64,000 nucleotides of DNA from positions 13,011,001 to 13,075,000 of the forward strand of contig NC_060026.1 in assembly GCF_021134715.1 (NCBI RefSeq), read 5' to 3'. Below, piece after piece: positions 12,970 to 38,780 of this stretch (positions are counted from its first letter, which is position 1; the number at the start of each line of letters is the position of its first letter). The notes beneath the pieces are model-generated. The model was not told the DNA's origin. It did not search any database and was given only the letters and a program-made list of their open reading frames with translations. A program made the position numbers and the translations under genes. The stretch comes from Daphnia pulex (Eukaryota > Arthropoda > Branchiopoda > Diplostraca > Daphniidae).

Positions 12970-15270
12970 ATGAGGATTTTGTTGTCATGGCAACTGGTGA
13001 TTGTGTTGGCTCTTTTTCTGTTCGGCTTTGCTTCTTCAGAATTAGAATCGCCAGACGATCGTGTAACTGATCCCATCCCAACCTCAATTGACTCTCGAAC
13101 CGCTTCAACGAAAAAACCGGCGCCGACTAAAATGTTTTCCATGCAGCACGAGTCCTTCTGTATCAACATTTACGAAAGTCAAGAAATTAGTAACAAGAAA
13201 AAAGAATATTTCCACTCGCCGATCACTCTCCTAGAGCACACCAATGTTACTCCTCTTCAAAATAAGCTCCAAGTCCGTTTTCACATTTCAAATTCAGAAG
13301 TCCTCAACAAAGTGTTAGAACGCCTCAACCTCAAGCTGCAGCTCAGTAAAAAAATCGAGCTCAATCAAGTGAAAGTCCTCCCTTACGACAGCGTCAGGCT
13401 GACCAGCAAAGTACAATCTCCTGATTTCTCATTGATTGATGAGTGGATTCTGTATGACAATCCACTTAGATTTTCCTTGATCTGCCCGACACGAGAAGAT
13501 TGCAATCGAGTGAGGAATCAAATACTTGATAACCCCAAAAAATTTGATCATTTACGACTTGAATTTAAGTCTCAATTTAACGACGGTATGCTGATTTGAA
13601 AGAAATTTGATTTAAAACAAACAAAAAAAAATATTTAATTTTACTTTTGCATTTTTAGATATTTGTTCCATTGGTAGTCATGAAACATCTCAAACAGTCA
13701 ACAACAACGGTATTTAAATAGATTAATTATCTAATTTACGAATAAAATGGCATAATAGGATTTAATGAAAAACAATCAAAACATTTCAAGATTTATTCAT
13801 TAATCTTCGAGACCAATTTGAGGCACAAGTGACCAGCATTAAGGAAGGTAGAATACATAAAAATGAATTGATTATTCGCTATGAATTAAGCTTATCAACT
13901 GTTGAAACTAAAAGGTTTATCGGATAAAATCCAAAACATGGAAAGAAATCTTGCAGGTAATTTTTGTTATCATTGGAAGAGATATTTTTCCCACGTAAAA
14001 TTCTAAATTGTTTTTAATTCAACAACGGGACTTTTTATATGATAATATTTGATGATTGTCAAGTTCAAGTCAGATTTTTTAACCTAATAGTAAATTAAAA
14101 ATTTAATTGGTTTGCAGAGACACGAAATAAATTGGAAAGCACTGAAGCAAAACTAAACGCAGCTAGCGAGTTGATTAACAACGTCAATGATCTGACTACC
14201 AAATTAAATGGCAAAATTACAAAATTTGAATTTTTTTTTCTATCTAAATAATGTAGATTTAAAGTTTTATTAATTGTGTTTTCTGTGATCTGTAGCAAGT
14301 TTGGAAAGAATCGTTCAAGACCAAAAAGCCGTAGAAGACAGTCTGAGAAAAGAACTGGGAGGTAGGCCTACAATTTATTTTAAAAAAACGTGAAACCCCT
14401 TTCTAACCTAATGAAACGGTTCAGCAACCTCAGCAAATTTCGACTCAACGAAAATGAAGCAGGATTTGGGAAACGCAATTGATGCCGTTGCTGAGTTGAC
14501 AAAACAATTAAATGGTAAAATTTTGTGAAGTTTGTTTACAATACGACAATTATAGAATAATTTGAATTTTGTTTCAATAACAGCCCGAACGAATGAAATA
14601 GTTGACATTGGTAAAATGCCAACTTCATGTTCGGATCTGCAGCGAATTGGACATAAACTGAACGGATTTTTTATGGTGAAAAGTGTGAGGAAGATGGAAA
14701 CAGTTTACTGCAACTTTTATCCTAATAACAATTGTACGACAAGTTTTTTTTTTTTTTAATTCATTATTGATTGTCTAAATTGTCTTTTGATTTGCAGATA
14801 TACAAAAATGGATCGGGTACGCCGATGTCAAATCGGAGCCCGTTTATTTCTTCGTCAAGAGTAGTTCCAAGTTCGACACTATCAACAGCCCGATTCAGTT
14901 CAAAATGCAGCGGGAGAACGAGGGAAATGCCTTTAGTTTGGAAACAGGGATATTTACGGCACCACGACCGGGAATTTATTTCTTCTCTTTCATAGGACTG
15001 GCGGATTTTCTAACTTCTTCATCTAAAGTTTTGCTAGGAGTTAGCCTTCAATTGAACAGGGATTTCAAGAGGGATTCAGTGGGAATGGCTTATGTTGACG
15101 ATTTAAACACCACTGATCGAAAAAATACAGTGACCATTCAGTCTACGCTGAAATTAAAAAAAAACGATCAAGTCTGGGTGGAGATTACGTTCATGGAATC
15201 GTCAAGTCTATTTGCCACCTATTTTACCGGTTTTCTGCTGGAGGAGGAACTTTCCCCATTTCTAAATTGA
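12970..15270 (+). CDS. Secreted coiled-coil / C1q-domain protein, gene 1
   Basis: Predicted secreted C1q-like protein of about 545 aa. Exons: 12970-13585, 13659-13709, 13791-13847, 13915-13956, 14118-14210, 14296-14361, 14425-14514, 14584-14733 and 14798-15270; the frame closes throughout. Residues 1-24 are a signal peptide (ILLSWQLVIVLALFLFGF). Residues about 50-205 form an N-terminal region shared with gene 2 (YFHSPITLLEH, LTSKVQSPDF, PKKFDHLRLEF). Exons 3-7 encode a charged helical, probably coiled-coil stalk that would drive oligomerisation. Exons 8-9 hold KMPTSCSDLQRIGHKLNGFF and the C1q domain (GNAFSLETGIFTAPRPGIYF, NDQVWVEI, YFTGFLLEE). C1q heads act as extracellular recognition modules; the ligand is unknown. 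The intron after 14210 starts with GC rather than GT. AATAAA lies at 15484. Confidence 0.88.
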
Positions 15271-16191: not shown

Positions 16192-19100
16192 ATGGCAACG
16201 ATTCCGGTGAGGTCCATACTCGCCATCTTTTGGGTTTTTGTCGTTTGTTGTAACTGCCAATCAATTGACCCCGATGCTTCCTCTTCTTGGGCGAAACTCC
16301 AAATCTCACCGGACACGTTAGGTTCCATGGAGTACGGCAACTTTCTCATTGAAATTTACGAACACGCCAATAACCATAAAGCATCGACGACCGCCAGCCA
16401 GAAAAAATACTTCTACTCTCCCCTCGCGCTATTGGACCACAAAAGTGCCGTTAGTATATACAACAACGTTACGAAGCAACCAGAGATGAGATTTCGTGGA
16501 ACGCCAAAGTCCAAAATGAAGTGGTCAAACATTTAAACAAATCTATCGGTCAAGAAATACAATCCGATAAAGTGAGAGTCATTCCCTTGGAGAAGGTCAT
16601 TCTCACGAGCAAAAGAGTAAAGACCCACAGCAGATTATTCGCTATCGCCAGTGTGGACGAATTATGACAAGAGCACAACCCTGAGGCTTTCTCTGTCGTG
16701 TTCTGAGCAGAAAGTCTGCGACGATCTGGCTAACGAAATGCGATCCAATCCCGAACAATTCGACCACTTAAAACTCCTCTACAGTTTGTCATCACAGACG
16801 TCGCAAACCAAACAGACGACCATCAGCATCGACAGCATCACTTCCGGTGAAATGGTTACTGCTCTTTTACAGAAATTTGGAGACAAAAAAGAAATTTTTC
16901 TGACGGCCAACGACGAGAAGAAAATGCTGACGGAAATGGCCACCAAATTCCGAATGGACACATTCGACGACTCTGAGGTCGAGTCTCCTGACACGGAATC
17001 GCAAATTTTAAATATTTTCAAAGATTTGCTGGCCACGTCTAGGGCGACCATCAAAGATCAAAGCGACAAAATGTGGAACTCTGTTTTCTGGAATGAGGAC
17101 AATTACCGGCCGGACAAAACGACGAAAACTTTAAATGAAATCATAAACAAACTGGACAAGGAAACTCAAAAGAAACTGGCGGATATGTTTCAAAAAGCGG
17201 AGAAGCAATCGGAAATAACAGAAAAATTAACTTCGACTAATAAAGACGCGGAGAAAAGACGAGAGGAACAAACTCGTCACGAAAATCAATCGAAAGATAC
17301 AAATGAAAAGGAAATGAGAAGATCACAAGCCACGGATCGAGAACAATCTAGTCGCAATCAAACTCGCAATGACAAATCTAAAATCAACAAAGTTGACACG
17401 GAAGTCACTGCCAGTGGGTTGGGTGTTAGTTTAGGCGCCAAAGTCGAAGTAGAAAATACTAACACGCACAACACCGAACAACAAAACGAGAATACTGAAA
17501 ACGTAAAAAGAAGTTCGGATGAACATAAAAGAAATTTCAAGAATAATGAAAAAATCCAACACAATTACGACTCAAACAGTTGGGCTGACGTGGACAGAAT
17601 CAGTTCAACAATTTCAGGGAAAATGGCAATCGATTCAGACAGATCCCGTCGAGTCGAAATATTGAAAGAAGACGTGGAAAAGTTATTGCAAGAAAGTAGA
17701 AACCACGTGGAATGGGACGGAGAAAAATTTGTGCCCAAACCCATGCAACTGAGTAGAATCAATTTGGGCAAATTTCGTGATTCTCAATCCTTTCAGGATC
17801 GCAACGTCCGTGTCCGTTACACGAACGCGGAACTGTCGGCTCCAATCAAATTTACAGACAACACTAAATTGGCTGTCACTGACGAATGGAACAATTTAAA
17901 GGACGAACTCAAAGGTTTTTAAAAATTTCTTAGATTACAATGAAATATTTTTACTTTAATCCTAAATAAATTGCAGACCTTAGAGAACTTTTGGTGAAAA
18001 CTAAAACCGAAATGGAAAAAACAAAGGCCCAATTAATTAAAGGCACCAATGATTTATCAAAAAAATTAAATGGTATTTGATTATTATTACTCATTCACTC
18101 GTCATCACGTATAGATTTAAGTTCGACATCTTCTCAATTCTTTTTGCAACTGAAAAATAATTTATATCAGATTAATTGTTTTCTGCGATTGTGTAGCAAA
18201 TTCGCAACGATTTGCTTACGTAATAAAACCGGGAATAAAACCAGCTAAACAGCCGAAAACAGTCTGAGAAAAGAATTGAGAGTATAATTTACATTTAAAA
18301 AATCTGAAATCATTTAAATTTTAAACATATTCGAATGAAATTATTCAGATACTTCACGTAAACTGGAAACAACAACAACAAATTTGGCCTCGGCGAGAAC
18401 GGAATTGAGCAGCACAAGGTCCGCCGTTGCGGATTTGATTAAAAAATTAAATGGTGCTGAATTAGATCGCTTTATCAATTTACCTATACAGGAATAAAAT
18501 TGTTTAATTTCTATTCAACAGCCCGAACGAGTGAGATGGTTGACATTGGTCAAATGCCAACCTCGTGTGCGGATCTGCAGCGGATGGGTCAAAAAATCAG
18601 CGGATTCTTTTTGGTAAAAGGAGCGAAAAAGATGGAAGCGCTATACTGCAATTTTTATTCTAATCAAAATGGTACGCAATCTTTGCCTGTATGGTATATC
18701 ATATGGCCACGTTTGCCGGTTATTAATTGCCTAATTCCGCCTAATTCTTTTAATTGCAGACAAACAAAAATGGATCGGATACGCCGACGTGAAATCAGCG
18801 CCCGTCCATTTCTACGTCCAGAGAAATTCTTCGTTCGATACAACTAACACTCCGATTTCGTTCAGTTCGGCGCGGGTAAACGAGGGAAATGCTATGAGTT
18901 TGCCAACGGGGAAATTCACGACACCGCGTACGGGAACTTATTTCTTTTTCTTCACCGGAGTGGCGACATTTCCAGTTTCGGCAGGTCACGTTCAACTTGG
19001 ACTTTATCTGAACGGTGGTCAAATCGGTAAGGGCGTGATTGAAAAGTCAAACGTCCTTCTTCGTCAGTGGAGTCTGTTGTCTCTCCAGTCAACGCTGTAC

Positions 19101-19232
19101 TTGACATCGGGGGATCGAGTCTGGGTGCAGATTGATAGCCTAGCATCAGGGGTGATTTTGTATGGCAACAGTGACCACCTGACTCATTTTACCGGTTTCA
19201 TGTTGGAGGAGGAAACTGTCACCTCCTTTTGA
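16192..19232 (+). CDS. Secreted coiled-coil / C1q-domain protein, gene 2 (two compensating frameshifts)
   Basis: Paralogue of gene 1. Exons 16192-17914, 17977-18072, 18349-18453, 18522-18671 and 18760-19232; the last two match gene 1 in length (150 and 473). The start at 16192 is chosen for its signal peptide (SILAIFWVFVVCCNCQ). The shared N-terminal region is followed by a long insert absent from gene 1: FDHLKLLYSLSSQTSQTKQT, a Lys/Glu/Asn-rich coiled segment, and VEWDGEKFVPKPMQLSRINL. The C1q head shows GNAMSLPTGKFTTPRTGTYF, DRVWVQI and HFTGFMLEEE. Relative to gene 1 there is a 1-nt loss near 16497 (stop follows at 16534) and a 1-nt gain near 16625 that restores the frame. The homologue of gene 1 exon 6 (18197-18281) is dead. 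Either a recent pseudogene or assembly indels; the rest is intact (about 848 aa). AATAAA at 19328. Confidence 0.78.
18197..18281 (+). pseudogene. Decayed exon of C1q gene 2
   Basis: Lies where gene 1 has its 66-nt exon 6 and keeps the acceptor (GTGTAG), the tail GAAAACAGTCTGAGAAAAGA and a GTATAA donor. It is 85 nt, is not a multiple of three and contains an in-frame stop, so including it would break the protein. Skipping it keeps the neighbouring phase-1 exons in frame. Confidence 0.65.
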
Positions 19233-20081: not shown

Positions 20082-20088
20082 CTAATAC

Positions 20089-20772
20089 CACAGACTAAGA
20101 GGGTAAAGACTACGAACGGCTATAAACCCCTTGAAGCGATGCGCGTCCTATGCCGTATGGTGGCGCGTCGAGCACACTCTACCAAAGCCATTATTTTTCC
20201 TTTTTCCCTACTGATATGAGTCTTCACACACCGTAAATTTGTAAGTGAACCATTAACATTTCAATAGTGAATTTTTGTTTAAATAAAGCTTAGATATCCC
20301 CCATGTTGTGTGAATTTTTTCAAATTTCTATGTGATCTCTAGACACAATCTATAAATTCCTTTATTAAACCCCTTTTTTGCCCATTTTCAGGCCCAAGAA
20401 ACAGCGTTTCACGATTTTCAGGCCCATTTCAGAAAATCTTGAAACGCTGTTTCTTGGGCCTGAAAATGGGCAAAAAAGGGGTTTAATAAAGGAATTTATA
20501 GATTGTGTCTAGAGATCACATAGAAATTTGAAAAAATTCACACAACATGGGGGATATCTAAGCTTTATTTAAACAAAAATTCACTATTGAAATGTTAATG
20601 GTTCACTTACAAATTTACGGTGTGTGAAGACTCATATCAGTAGGGAAAAAGGAAAAATAATGGCTTTGGTAGAGTGTGCTCGACGCGCCACCATACGGTA
20701 TAGGACGAGCATCGCTTCAAGCATTCCTCTTAGCCCTATCCCCGATCGTAGTCTTTACCCTCTTAGTCTGTG
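20089..20772. mobile_element. Foldback element: 684-bp near-perfect palindrome
   Basis: Arms 20089-20411 and 20440-20772 are inverted copies around a 28-bp spacer. Reading both arms inward, about the inner 250 bp appear identical. Near the tips a short patch differs (ACGAACGGCTATAAACCCC against a longer diverged block). The tips begin CACAGACTAAGAGGG. CTAATAC flanks both sides (20082-20088 and 20773-20779), a likely 7-bp target-site duplication. No protein is encoded. This fits a foldback or long-inverted-repeat MITE; the superfamily is not assigned. A transcript across it would form a hairpin of more than 300 bp. Confidence 0.85.
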
Positions 20773-20779
20773 CTAATAC

Positions 20780-34570: not shown

Positions 34571-37335
34571 TTAAACGCAAGTATTATTCGAGTCGTTTGA
34601 CAACCCGTTGAAAATCCGAGCCGATTCATCTTCGCTAGTATCTGGAAAAATGTATACAAACAAACAACACATTTTAGTCCATCCTTATTTGACTGGTTTC
34701 AAATATAGCATAATCTCACCCCCGTTATATTCGAGAACTAGACTGCTCATGGCGTCCGTCACTGAATCGGCAGCACTCATCAAATCTTGGCGCCAATCAA
34801 AGCTGCCTGTGTTGAAATTACGATTGGGATTATCCATTGACGGGGTGATGGCGGCTTGGTGGGATTCGGCCTCGACCGAAGGACTTTTCCCACGGCTTGG
34901 GGTAGAAGACGTAGATGGAGTAGAACGGGGCGATAGCTGCTGATTCTGGGAATTGAAAAACGAGGAGTCACATGTTAAGAGCCGCACTATTTGAGAACCA
35001 AGGATTTCTCAAATTACTTTGATCATCTTCATTAGCGATTCCAATTGCACCATAAGTTGTTTGCGAGAGTCTTGTAATCCATTCAGTTGCTGTTCAAGCT
35101 CCGATTTCCTCTGCCGCAGAACGCTCAACTCTTCCATGAGGGGATAAGGTCCCGTTATGACCCCTTCATCCATTTCCTGCTCGTGACTGCACAGAGATCA
35201 ATAGAATTTAGGCCAAACTTCTTTAAAATGTAAACCAACAGAAACACGGGGGGTCGTACCGAATACGAGCAATTTCTCTGAGAATTTCTTGGTTTTTATT
35301 CTCAAGCTGAGCCAATAGTTGGTGTGCACTGGTGCTGCTACTCTCTTGCTCCGGACGAGGATCCTTCTGATTTTCTGCTAATTTAGCGGCATAGCGCGCA
35401 ATCAATCCGTGTTCATCATCTCCGCGTTGCCACGAACGACTCAAACTTCCCGTGTTATTTTGCACTTGGCTGGTCTTCCATGTCTCGCTACCTCCCAATA
35501 GAGAAGCGTTGCGTTCCAATGTCGCTGATGGCGTTGAACTATAAAAATGAAAGGAAAATGCATGCATTAATTACTAATTGGACTATGAAAAATTCTAAGT
35601 GGTTTATTATGGGGTAATATGTAATTCTAAGTCTAAAATAGCGATCAGATAATTAAAAAATGGGAATTAAAAAGGTTTCCCATACCGGGAATCGAACCCG
35701 AGCCTCTTGGGTGAAAGCCAAGTATCCTAGCCACTAGACCATATGGGATATACCAAAAGGGCTTCTTACATATACGTGACTGCAACGGGTCTCTCTGGAC
35801 CCTCTAGTGTTCTCCAAACTTTGGTACGATTCTGGTCGTAGTCGGACGTGGGGCTTCTCACGCACTGAAGGGAACGCCTCAAAGATGCCGAAAACACCGA
35901 TTCCTTTGGGGTTTTCTACATTAAACGTCAGGAAATTAAAAAATAACAGTTAATTCTAGCCAAAACGGTTCGTTTAGCTTGCCAATCTATAGCATGCTCA
36001 CTTATATACCTCTTCTGCTGCCTGAAGCATCAGTAAGCGTGAATAAATAAACGAGCATATAATAAGCATATCAAACGGCGTTTAAGAGATATCCCAGTCA
36101 AAAGATTTCGTTATCTAATGCCCCTTTCAACATACCGGCGTGTGATGCTCGCGAATCTCGTGATCGGCATTATGCGACTCCGAAAAAGAAAGTCCACGCC
36201 AAAAACATTCTTGACACTGATGGCTCCATGCCGAAGGACATTTGGTACACTTGTATCGTAAACCGCTGAAACGGGTGCGTCCACAAGAAACGCATTCCAC
36301 GGGATGAACGACTGCAAGCAATTAAAAAAGGTAATTTCAACGGTCAAGAGCATCCAATATGACGTTCTTGGGTATTACCATTTTCGGCAGCTGCGATACG
36401 ATGTATGAGAGGAAGCCAAACCAATGACGGAGCTGCCGCAGGGTCACCCAAGAGGACGTCAAGGAATTCATTTACACTCACTTTGGAACCCTGTTATGAA
36501 AAAGATATAAGATCAAGTTCTTAATAGAGCTGTAAAGAATACAACAAACTCATTAAAATAAATACATTTGGAAAGATTTCTTGAGCCATTGCCGGCCTGT
36601 AATGAAATGAAGGCTCTTCTCCAACTGCAGCTGTTAGAACAAAACACTGACGCATGAAGTCTTCAAATTTTGGGGCAACAAGCTGTCCATTCGAGTCAGA
36701 CATTTGAGAAAAAGCATCTGGAAGCAAATGCATTTGTGTTAAATCCAAGTTTGTGAGTAAGAAGGAATAGGTAGCCTACAGCGAAGCTTATCTGCCAACT
36801 TTCCACCACACAGCACGGCTAAAATCATTTTGATTGTAAAGACAGGGATCCTATCAGTTTCTTCATTCCTGTAAAAGATTGTAATTTTATAGAGCTCCAT
36901 TTGGCAAAGTATTATCATCACTTACAGGTTGTAAACAGACACAATCCACTTGATAAGATACATGGTCGCAGGATCAACATGAAGCTGTTGCCCAATGGGG
37001 ACCCGTTTGTTTAAATGAACATACAGGGTGTTTATCAAAGTCTCAAGTCGACTGAGAGTCATAGGTGTGTAGGGCTCCACCGAATTCAATCCATTTTCTC
37101 TGAAGGCCTCAATTAGATTCCACACATCGATAAGGTGCACTGTAGAGATAACAACCAAATGAATTCAATTCAACTAGAAAATATTTTAGGAATGTATGAA
37201 TGTGTTACAATGAGTTCTTCGCTGAATGAAACGGAATTTGACAGCCGTCCGATAAGAAGCTAGACGAATGACGTTGAAATTCTGCGTGTGGATGTCATTT
37301 GCCAAGTCCAATTTGCCCGACTCATTTTGTTCCAT
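34571..37335 (-). CDS. Dyb: Dystrobrevin
   Basis: Cytoplasmic member of the dystrophin-associated complex that binds dystrophin and syntrophins. Eleven coding exons 5' to 3': 37335-37209, 37139-36926, 36868-36780, 36717-36566, 36490-36379, 36311-36136, 35915-35770, 35538-35260, 35186-35018, 34945-34720 and 34641-34571; the frame closes at 586 aa. The EF-hand-like region (residues about 15-230) has [19 protein letters not shown] and [23 protein letters not shown] zinc finger at 231-290 ([39 protein letters not shown]) is followed by [16 protein letters not shown]. Paired coiled coils lie at about 410-488 ([35 protein letters not shown]), with a dystrobrevin-like C-terminal block [17 protein letters not shown]. 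The ZZ start, AVHPVEC-like VVHPVEC, is a family signature. The start codon is the first ATG of the exon. Confidence 0.95.
35677..35748 (-). tRNA. tRNA-Glu (anticodon TTC)
   Basis: A full 72-nt cloverleaf on the minus strand. Acceptor arms TCCCATA and TATGGGA pair; the D-arm is GGTCTAGTGGCTAGGAT, the anticodon loop CTTTCAC within a CTTGG/CCAAG stem, and the T-arm CGGGTTCGATTCCCG. A TTTTT run follows within about 10 nt, a Pol III terminator. The gene sits in a dystrobrevin intron in the same orientation. Confidence 0.95.
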
Positions 37336-38780
37336 ACTGATCCTAGATATTCAATTATATTCACGTACAACGATCGATTTTCAAACACCCGAGAGGTAGT
37401 AGAGTGAATTAGCTTGGTATTCAAAGCCTGCTAAAATCAGAACTGCTTTAGTGCTACCGCTAAGCCGATCTGTACGACTTCGTGAGAAAGAACTAGCAAA
37501 ACAACAAGCACCCTGCACTTTGATATTATGCAGCACATGCAAAAACAAGGATATAGCTTGATCAGCTGTTTGGAATGCTAAACTAGCTGCAGCGCCTTCT
37601 CTGAAGTTGTTGATACTAAACAGACTGCATGGAGCATGCCCGAGCACGCCACATAACGTCGTAACCCTCGTCTAGAAATTCCCAATATAACGCTTGTGTG
37701 ATTTATTTTCCAAACATGGTTAGAGTGTAAGACGTCTGGTGTGTTGGTCGATAAGTAAATACAAGCGGCAGATTGATATCTATTTGAAGTTTTCAAATCT
37801 CGCCTCAGATTTCTAGCAAGCCATAAAGTAAATGCCCTTAGCGATAGCCATACAACCTAACGTAACTTTGATTAAAAAAGGAGATGTTTTGAGGCTTGGA
37901 GCAAAGGGTAAAAAGACGTCCAGCACACAAGGATTGATTATAACTTGCTAATTCAAATTACTATGCAAAATGTGAAGTAAACCAAACCTCCTGCTGGGAT
38001 TTCAATTAGTAGCACAAGCACATGCGTTTAAATTGCGGATGTTTGGCTACTACTGGCTTTTTATGGGTACTGTAAATGGTGAAAATTCGAAACTGTAAAA
38101 AGATATGTTCACGGAAAGCTATTATTCCAATTTCCGTACTCCACCCACTTGTAGTTTGTTTATATTTATAAAAACGAGGACACGGGATATCCGCCTTCTT
38201 TATTAATGAAATAGCCGCTTGTATTTTAGTAAGTGTGTAAAATATTTGTATGTAATTTACAGCATTTTTTCACTCTTAGTTCTCTTTTTAATATTTATTT
38301 ATTTAATAACACCACTCAGAACACGCTGACTTCCTTCCAGTTTCTCACAAGGAGATACCGGAAACGGTCCTCAATGGACAAGAGTAGATACTACCGAAGC
38401 AGTTACACTCCCGACCTGCTTCACGCTCAGAAGCCAGCGTCGTTACTCCTCATCGTGGGTTGAAAGGAGACAAGTTTCTGGTGGGAAACAAGTCAAGATA
38501 TACTACAGAAATGATCCTGTGAAGTATGATCTTAATTAGTCGTTGGTTTGGCGCAAGTATTTGATGTTTTCATAAAAAGAAACAGCAGTGACGTAACTGA
38601 ATGCTTCAAAATACAATCTGTAGACGTATACACAAATATTTCGTTCTAGTAATTGCACAGTGCACGAAACTGTAACTTGAAGTAGAGTGTTCACTTAACG
38701 AATATTATTAATCTTGATAAGAAAGAGGTATAAATATATAATTCTCAAAATTAGAGACGATACTGGAACCGAGACTGCAA
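37336..38780. other. Upstream of Dyb, no confident gene
   Basis: Contains the Dyb promoter side. Two overlapping minus-strand open frames at 37381-37796 show no domain or convincing splice pairing. A plus-strand open frame at 38233-38463 after a TTTACAG-like acceptor is also unrecognised. Left as noncoding. Confidence 0.4.

Follow-up and report, generated by a model that had tools for sequence, protein, structure and literature searches.

How did a near-perfect palindrome of 684 bp come to lie in the genome of Daphnia pulex, and what does the difference between its two ends mean? The palindrome is located in a window of 64,000 nucleotides, the whole stretch of DNA that was analysed (C10:13011001-13075000 in a genome of 133.19 Mb and 13 contigs). 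C1q-domain coding segments lie to its left on the plus strand (14791-15270 and 18735-19232), and segments coding for C-type-lectin, SRCR and beta-helix domains lie to its right on the minus strand. The window also contains genes for tRNA-Glu (35677-35748, minus strand) and U3 snoRNA (38311-38533, minus strand, 146.9 bits). The original prediction proposed a foldback-type element inserted in the germline and left its superfamily unassigned. Our analysis indicates that the palindrome is most likely a real transposable-element copy, a relative of P elements without a transposase. Very probably it is a non-autonomous cut-and-paste transposon of the P superfamily, which consists of two long terminal inverted repeats (TIRs) and a centre of about 28 bp, carries no transposase gene and is mobilised in trans.

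Structure of the element in the window

A repeat search of the window detected inverted arms of 290 nt with 99% identity (20130-20419 and 20432-20721) and tip arms of 42 nt with 88% identity (20083-20124 and 20737-20778). Alignment of one arm against the other revealed 27 tip bases that are (nearly) identical, then a patch in which the arms are unlike in sequence and the right arm is 10 bp longer, and then about 259 bp without a difference (Table 1). This agrees with the original prediction of arms of 323 and 333 bp around a 28-bp spacer, with the inner ~250 bp identical and CTAATAC directly outside both tips (CACAGAC/GTCTGTG). The folding energy of the palindrome is -571.7 kcal/mol, compared with -149.7 +/- 4.8 kcal/mol for 20 shuffles. 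Because this value is far below those of the shuffles and the same 684-bp unit recurs in the genome, the palindrome is not a product of chance. If the element were transcribed, the RNA would be predicted to form one long hairpin, which in the original prediction is a possible source of endogenous siRNA.

Table 1. Features of the 684-bp element and its insertion site (window coordinates)
Feature	Position	Strand	Basis
Target-site duplication, left copy, CTAATAC	20082-20088	+	Window sequence, duplication table
Non-autonomous two-arm (foldback-type) element, very probably P superfamily, 684 bp	20089-20772	.	Arms, genome copies, duplications
Left-type (L) end: tip common to both ends, then L-specific patch	20089-20152	+	Arm alignment, divergence
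Inner arm beside L end, ~259 bp identical to opposite arm	20153-20411	+	Arm alignment and comparison
Asymmetric centre, ~28 bp, found in both orientations within the family	20412-20439	.	Arm comparison
Inner arm beside R end	20440-20698	-	Arm alignment and comparison
Right-type (R) end: same tip, other patch, 10 bp longer	20699-20772	-	Arm alignment, divergence
Target-site duplication, right copy, CTAATAC	20773-20779	+	Window sequence, duplication table

Copies in the genome and their target sites

When the left half of the palindrome (20082-20450) was used as a genome query, at least 64 matches were obtained, including the window's own two, and many of them are facing pairs; 40 of the 42 candidates were scored. 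The search for other copies that the original prediction had suggested thus yielded eight further full-length copies of 683-685 bp, which are 90.6-98.1% identical to the window copy. Two of them, L009 (C12) and L010 (C8), agree in 684 of 684 bases. Since they are identical and yet lie on different contigs, their movement appears to be recent, which is indirect evidence that this non-autonomous family may have been mobile until recently.

Target duplications were tabulated for the window copy and for those 17 of the 40 excised loci in which both tips were located (the other 23, among them L047, were left out, and loci L049-L063 lie outside the analysed set). Among these 18 two-ended elements with CACAGAC tips, the duplication is exact in 17, being 7 bp long in 14 and 8 bp long in three; the flanks of the remaining element, L039, do not match. 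In the 14 duplications of 7 bp, position 1 is G in nine cases, position 2 is T in 11, position 6 is A in 12 and position 7 is C in nine, a GTnnnAC-like preference. BLAST also revealed a paralogous empty site for L010: its flanks, minus one duplication, align over 566/616 bases with an unbroken junction, and the target site is present once with one base different. The host sequence in this case is a repeat that also occurs elsewhere without the element. A whole-genome search for an empty paralogue of the window insertion found none, each flank matching its own place only. The dispersed full-length copies, the exact duplications and the empty site of L010, together with window flanks that have no second match in the genome, support the insertion of a foldback-type element with a target duplication. 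At one end of L039, a two-arm element on C5, two CACAGACTA tips were found in direct succession, 21 bp apart (L039:1857-1899).

Two long loci, L014 (3.8 kb) and L020 (4.3 kb), were considered as cases of host-gene capture; this was rejected, both being window-type elements into which other repeats have been inserted. The insert of L014 is a segment of 3,118 bp (L014:1787-4904, C10:13455286-13458403) that recurs with 100% identity at C3:11424643, and three more places match 2,855-2,858 query bases at a rounded 100%. It holds Sec1-family coding pieces, which we take to be VPS33-like, and it looks like a recently mobile repeat with host-gene sequence. The insert of L020 is a palindromic repeat of 3.6 kb (L020:1490-5090, C4) with ends CAACTTGATC and the 8-bp duplication ATTTTTCC. 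Relatives of this repeat occur at many places in the genome, and it contains a cysteine-rich frame of 216 aa in both orientations that has no Pfam match at E<=0.1.

Assignment to the P superfamily

A degenerate tip pattern of 22 bases matched the genome 71 times with at most one mismatch, against three times for the reversed control. A looser pattern (20 bases, at most three mismatches) gave 62 matches against 22 for its control, and its 3-mismatch matches are mostly uninformative. The tip group includes L038, an element of 6,397 bp with CACAGACTAAGA at both ends and the target duplication GTGGTAA, whose arms are about 375-385 bp long and 97% alike over 328 bp. An uninterrupted frame of 290 aa in L038 encodes a P-type RNase H domain (PF21787, E 7.5e-27). 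Compared with the structure of the Drosophila P transposase (6p5a), this frame gave a whole-sequence E of 3e-4, no single stretch being significant. Later coding pieces give matches to PF21788 (E 0.08) and to PF21789 (E 0.083) that do not reach the Pfam cut-off. Upstream of the RNase H domain, a THAP domain is split over two adjoining frames. The first (2358-2591) covers positions 1-42 of the 87-position profile (E 0.047, 14.9 bits) and the second (2537-2695) covers positions 50-87 (E 9.1e-5, 23.6 bits); neither piece alone reaches the cut-off of 23.9 bits. As expected from this split, a motif scan inside the unbroken frames of L038 found no THAP motif, and L038 is not among the matches listed in a genome-wide THAP search (137 matches; best 150 of 181 candidates). 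L038 also contains an inverted repeat of 636 bp. The split THAP domain, the later pieces below the cut-off and this inverted repeat suggest that L038 and its transposase may be inactive.

The arms of L038 match those of the window element only at the tips (30 bp, 90%; for the R arm 72 bp, 79%) and in a block of 50 bp (88%). L040 and L041 (742 bp) align with the L038 arms from end to end at about 96%, and L039 (740 bp) aligns with them at 90-92%; these three are two-arm derivatives of the transposase-bearing L038. Since such derivatives exist, loss of the interior is a likely origin of palindromes of this kind. A window-type arm, 75.5% identical to the R arm of the window element, was found at C11:6335318, about 3 kb from transposase fragments that are 59% and 64% identical to those of L038. 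The second end of this C11 element was not found in 7.5 kb around the locus, which is the nearest thing to an intact autonomous parent with window-type arms that the genome search produced. No intact autonomous parent with window-type arms turned up. A related P-type transposase, 44% identical to that of L038, lies at C9:5547644-5550607. A THAP match is located some 2 kb upstream of it, and this locus is perhaps a more complete P element. Another subfamily is represented by a two-ended element of about 1.6 kb at L047:2250-3857 (C10), which has the tip CACAGACTACGAATG and CTGCTAC on both sides, its right tip being 2 bp short.

In summary, target duplications of 7-8 bp with a GT...AC preference are exact in 17 of 18 elements, an N-terminal THAP domain is present as the two split pieces of L038, and a P-type catalytic domain is found in L038, a member of the tip group, and not in an element bounded by window-type arms on either side. 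The ends, the target sites and the tip-sharing L038 with its RNase H and THAP domains therefore point to the P superfamily, which settles the combination of a 7-bp duplication and CACAGAC tips that had earlier been left without an assignment. Long arms or duplications of 7-9 bp are also known in some Mutator-like, hAT, Dada and Drosophila FB elements, and a foldback element of one of these or another superfamily would share such features. The GTnnnAC-like duplications of 7 or 8 bp and the P-type RNase H and THAP domains of an element that shares the CACAGACTA tip group make this very improbable. An assembly or chimeric-read artefact, in which one unique stretch was duplicated in inverted orientation, would produce inner arms as identical as those of the window copy. 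This explanation has next to no credibility, because eight other full-length places have different flanks and their own target duplications and because the tips differ in a conserved way. The original prediction had already used the patch near the tips as an argument against an artefact, and the patch indeed turned out to be a conserved difference between left and right ends.

Unlike ends

By eye, one L-type and one R-type end were read in all 18 two-ended elements, the left end of L023 being classified from its first ~30 bases. Because this holds for every element, the patch near the tips is not a result of decay. In the nine full-length copies, the end segments have a mean p-distance of 0.02 (L) and 0.00-0.017 (R), and the inner arms mostly have 0.06-0.077, with 0.034-0.051 (R) and 0.043 (L) near the centre; divergence in the ends is thus lower than in the arm beside them by a factor of about 3-4. 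The two ends also differ in length. The window copy has an offset of 10 bp (64 and 74 bp), and the other copies have one of 9-11 bp. In L038, the common subterminal anchor begins after 47 bp at one end and after 59 bp at the other, an offset of 12 bp. This conservation among related copies suggests that an L end and an R end may both be needed for movement.

Exchange between the arms

Large palindromes are prone to recombination. Before the centre, ten alignment columns separate the window copy and L009-L012 from L016-L019, with the same letter in both arms in nine of nine copies, and none sets the L arms of all copies apart from the R arms. The subgroup letters common to both arms and the lack of L-versus-R columns indicate concerted evolution between the arms. 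This process is incomplete: the inner arms of one element differ by 0.7-6.9% (ten elements including L025; 7-9% on average between elements), and an arm's own partner is strictly its nearest relative for only seven of 20 arms. With three further ties among the 20, the statement that the own other arm is nearest in most copies was ruled out. The two arms of L012 show 13 differences, and the nearest relatives of its R arm are the L arms of L009 and L010.

Relative to the tips, the centre is oriented one way in the window copy, L009, L010, L011 and L016 and the other way in L012, L017, L018 and L019 (nine full-length elements; L025 has no centre). At arm sites outside the centre, pairs with the same orientation gave four parallel, no crossed and 12 tied cases of 16, and pairs with opposite orientation gave seven crossed, no parallel and 13 tied cases of 20. 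These pairs do not count as independent, and two of the elements compared, L009 and L010, have the same sequence. Recombination between the inverted arms is the simplest reading; it would flip the interior and leave each copy with one tip of either type.

These results bear on why the ends are unlike. We tentatively propose, with nearly even chances of being right, a P-superfamily lineage with a strict unlike-ends rule, namely an L end paired with an R end at an offset of about one helical turn, which its palindromic derivatives would reveal naturally. It is just as tentatively part of this proposal that arm recombination erases other L/R differences and flips the interior and that only copies with L and R ends spread. 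The patch difference may instead reflect descent from one L/R ancestor whose tips conversion never reached, and not a requirement. This is possible but somewhat doubtful. The elements are related, so that the lack of L/L or R/R elements among 18 is not by itself proof of selection, and the heterology of the patch could stop conversion tracts before the tips. However, L038 and its two-arm derivatives, which are diverged from the window family apart from the tips and one short block, have retained an asymmetry of this kind (it amounts to 12 bp in L038), the ends are less diverged than the arms, and the available text on the P element describes the same 12-bp spacing difference (PMC7776569). Independent origins of the foldback form could likewise stand in for flipping as the source of the two centre orientations, both of which are common (five and four of nine). 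We consider this unlikely, since one and the same centre occurs in both orientations and the arm sites outside it follow its orientation (all 11 pairs without a tie agree; 25 of the 36 pairs, which are not independent, are tied). Returning to the unlike-ends rule, the arms are otherwise evened out, so the L/R difference that survives points to bases at which transposition may require unlike ends.

Proposed mechanism

The two-arm form would have arisen from a long-TIR parent that lost its interior. The transposase would come in trans from a P-type element belonging to this tip group, of which L038 is an example by structure, and the 684-bp family may have been mobilised by the L038-type transposase lineage. 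This P-type transposase would bind the unlike L and R ends and then cut, and the element would be inserted at GTnnnAC-like sites through a cut with a stagger of 7 bp or, in some cases, 8 bp. The arms would be kept alike, and the interior flipped, by recombination or conversion between them.

Comparison with known systems

For the Daphnia pulex PA42 assembly, a table gives three full-length and ten fragmented P elements, and the available part of the report does not mention a palindromic derivative (PMC5427498). No palindromic P-superfamily element of Daphnia or crustaceans was found among the listed open-licence PMC papers at the level of titles and the starts of abstracts. The unlike-ends rule, as proposed here, would have a parallel in V(D)J recombination with its 12/23 rule. 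According to the accessible text, the Drosophila P element has TIRs of 31 bp, and its ends are spaced 9 and 21 bp from the transposase site, a difference of 12 bp (PMC7776569). L038 resembles it in its transposase domains and in its 12-bp end offset, but the P element offset is a spacing to a transposase site, whereas the L038 anchor is a sequence match and a putative site, and the offset of the window copy is 10 bp. The arms are also much longer here, about 323-333 bp in the window element and 375-385 bp in L038.

By structure and target preference, the closest described analogue is Galileo, a P-superfamily element of Drosophila. In the available portions of its descriptions, Galileo has long Foldback-like TIRs, non-autonomous copies that are almost TIR only, and target duplications of 7 or 8 bp with the consensus GTANTAC/GTATTAC (PMC4168063, PMC2775673, PMC3573991); the same portions mention neither a fixed L/R end patch nor a centre inversion. 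The window family and the 2-TIR (2T) copies of Galileo are alike in their long TIRs, their TIR-only copies and their duplications of 7 or 8 bp, and TIRs of at least about 300 bp were found here together with a 7-bp GTANTAC-like duplication. The window family differs in its host, in its CACAGAC tips and in its total length of 684 bp; the 2-TIR copies of Galileo in D. mojavensis average 1.7-2.2 kb in the text available (PMC3573991). Galileo copies are also described, in the part of the report at hand, as having generated natural inversions in Drosophila (PMC2775673). The family described here would extend the P superfamily by a foldback lineage of the Galileo type in a crustacean, for which a relative that bears a transposase and derived palindromes occur within one genome.
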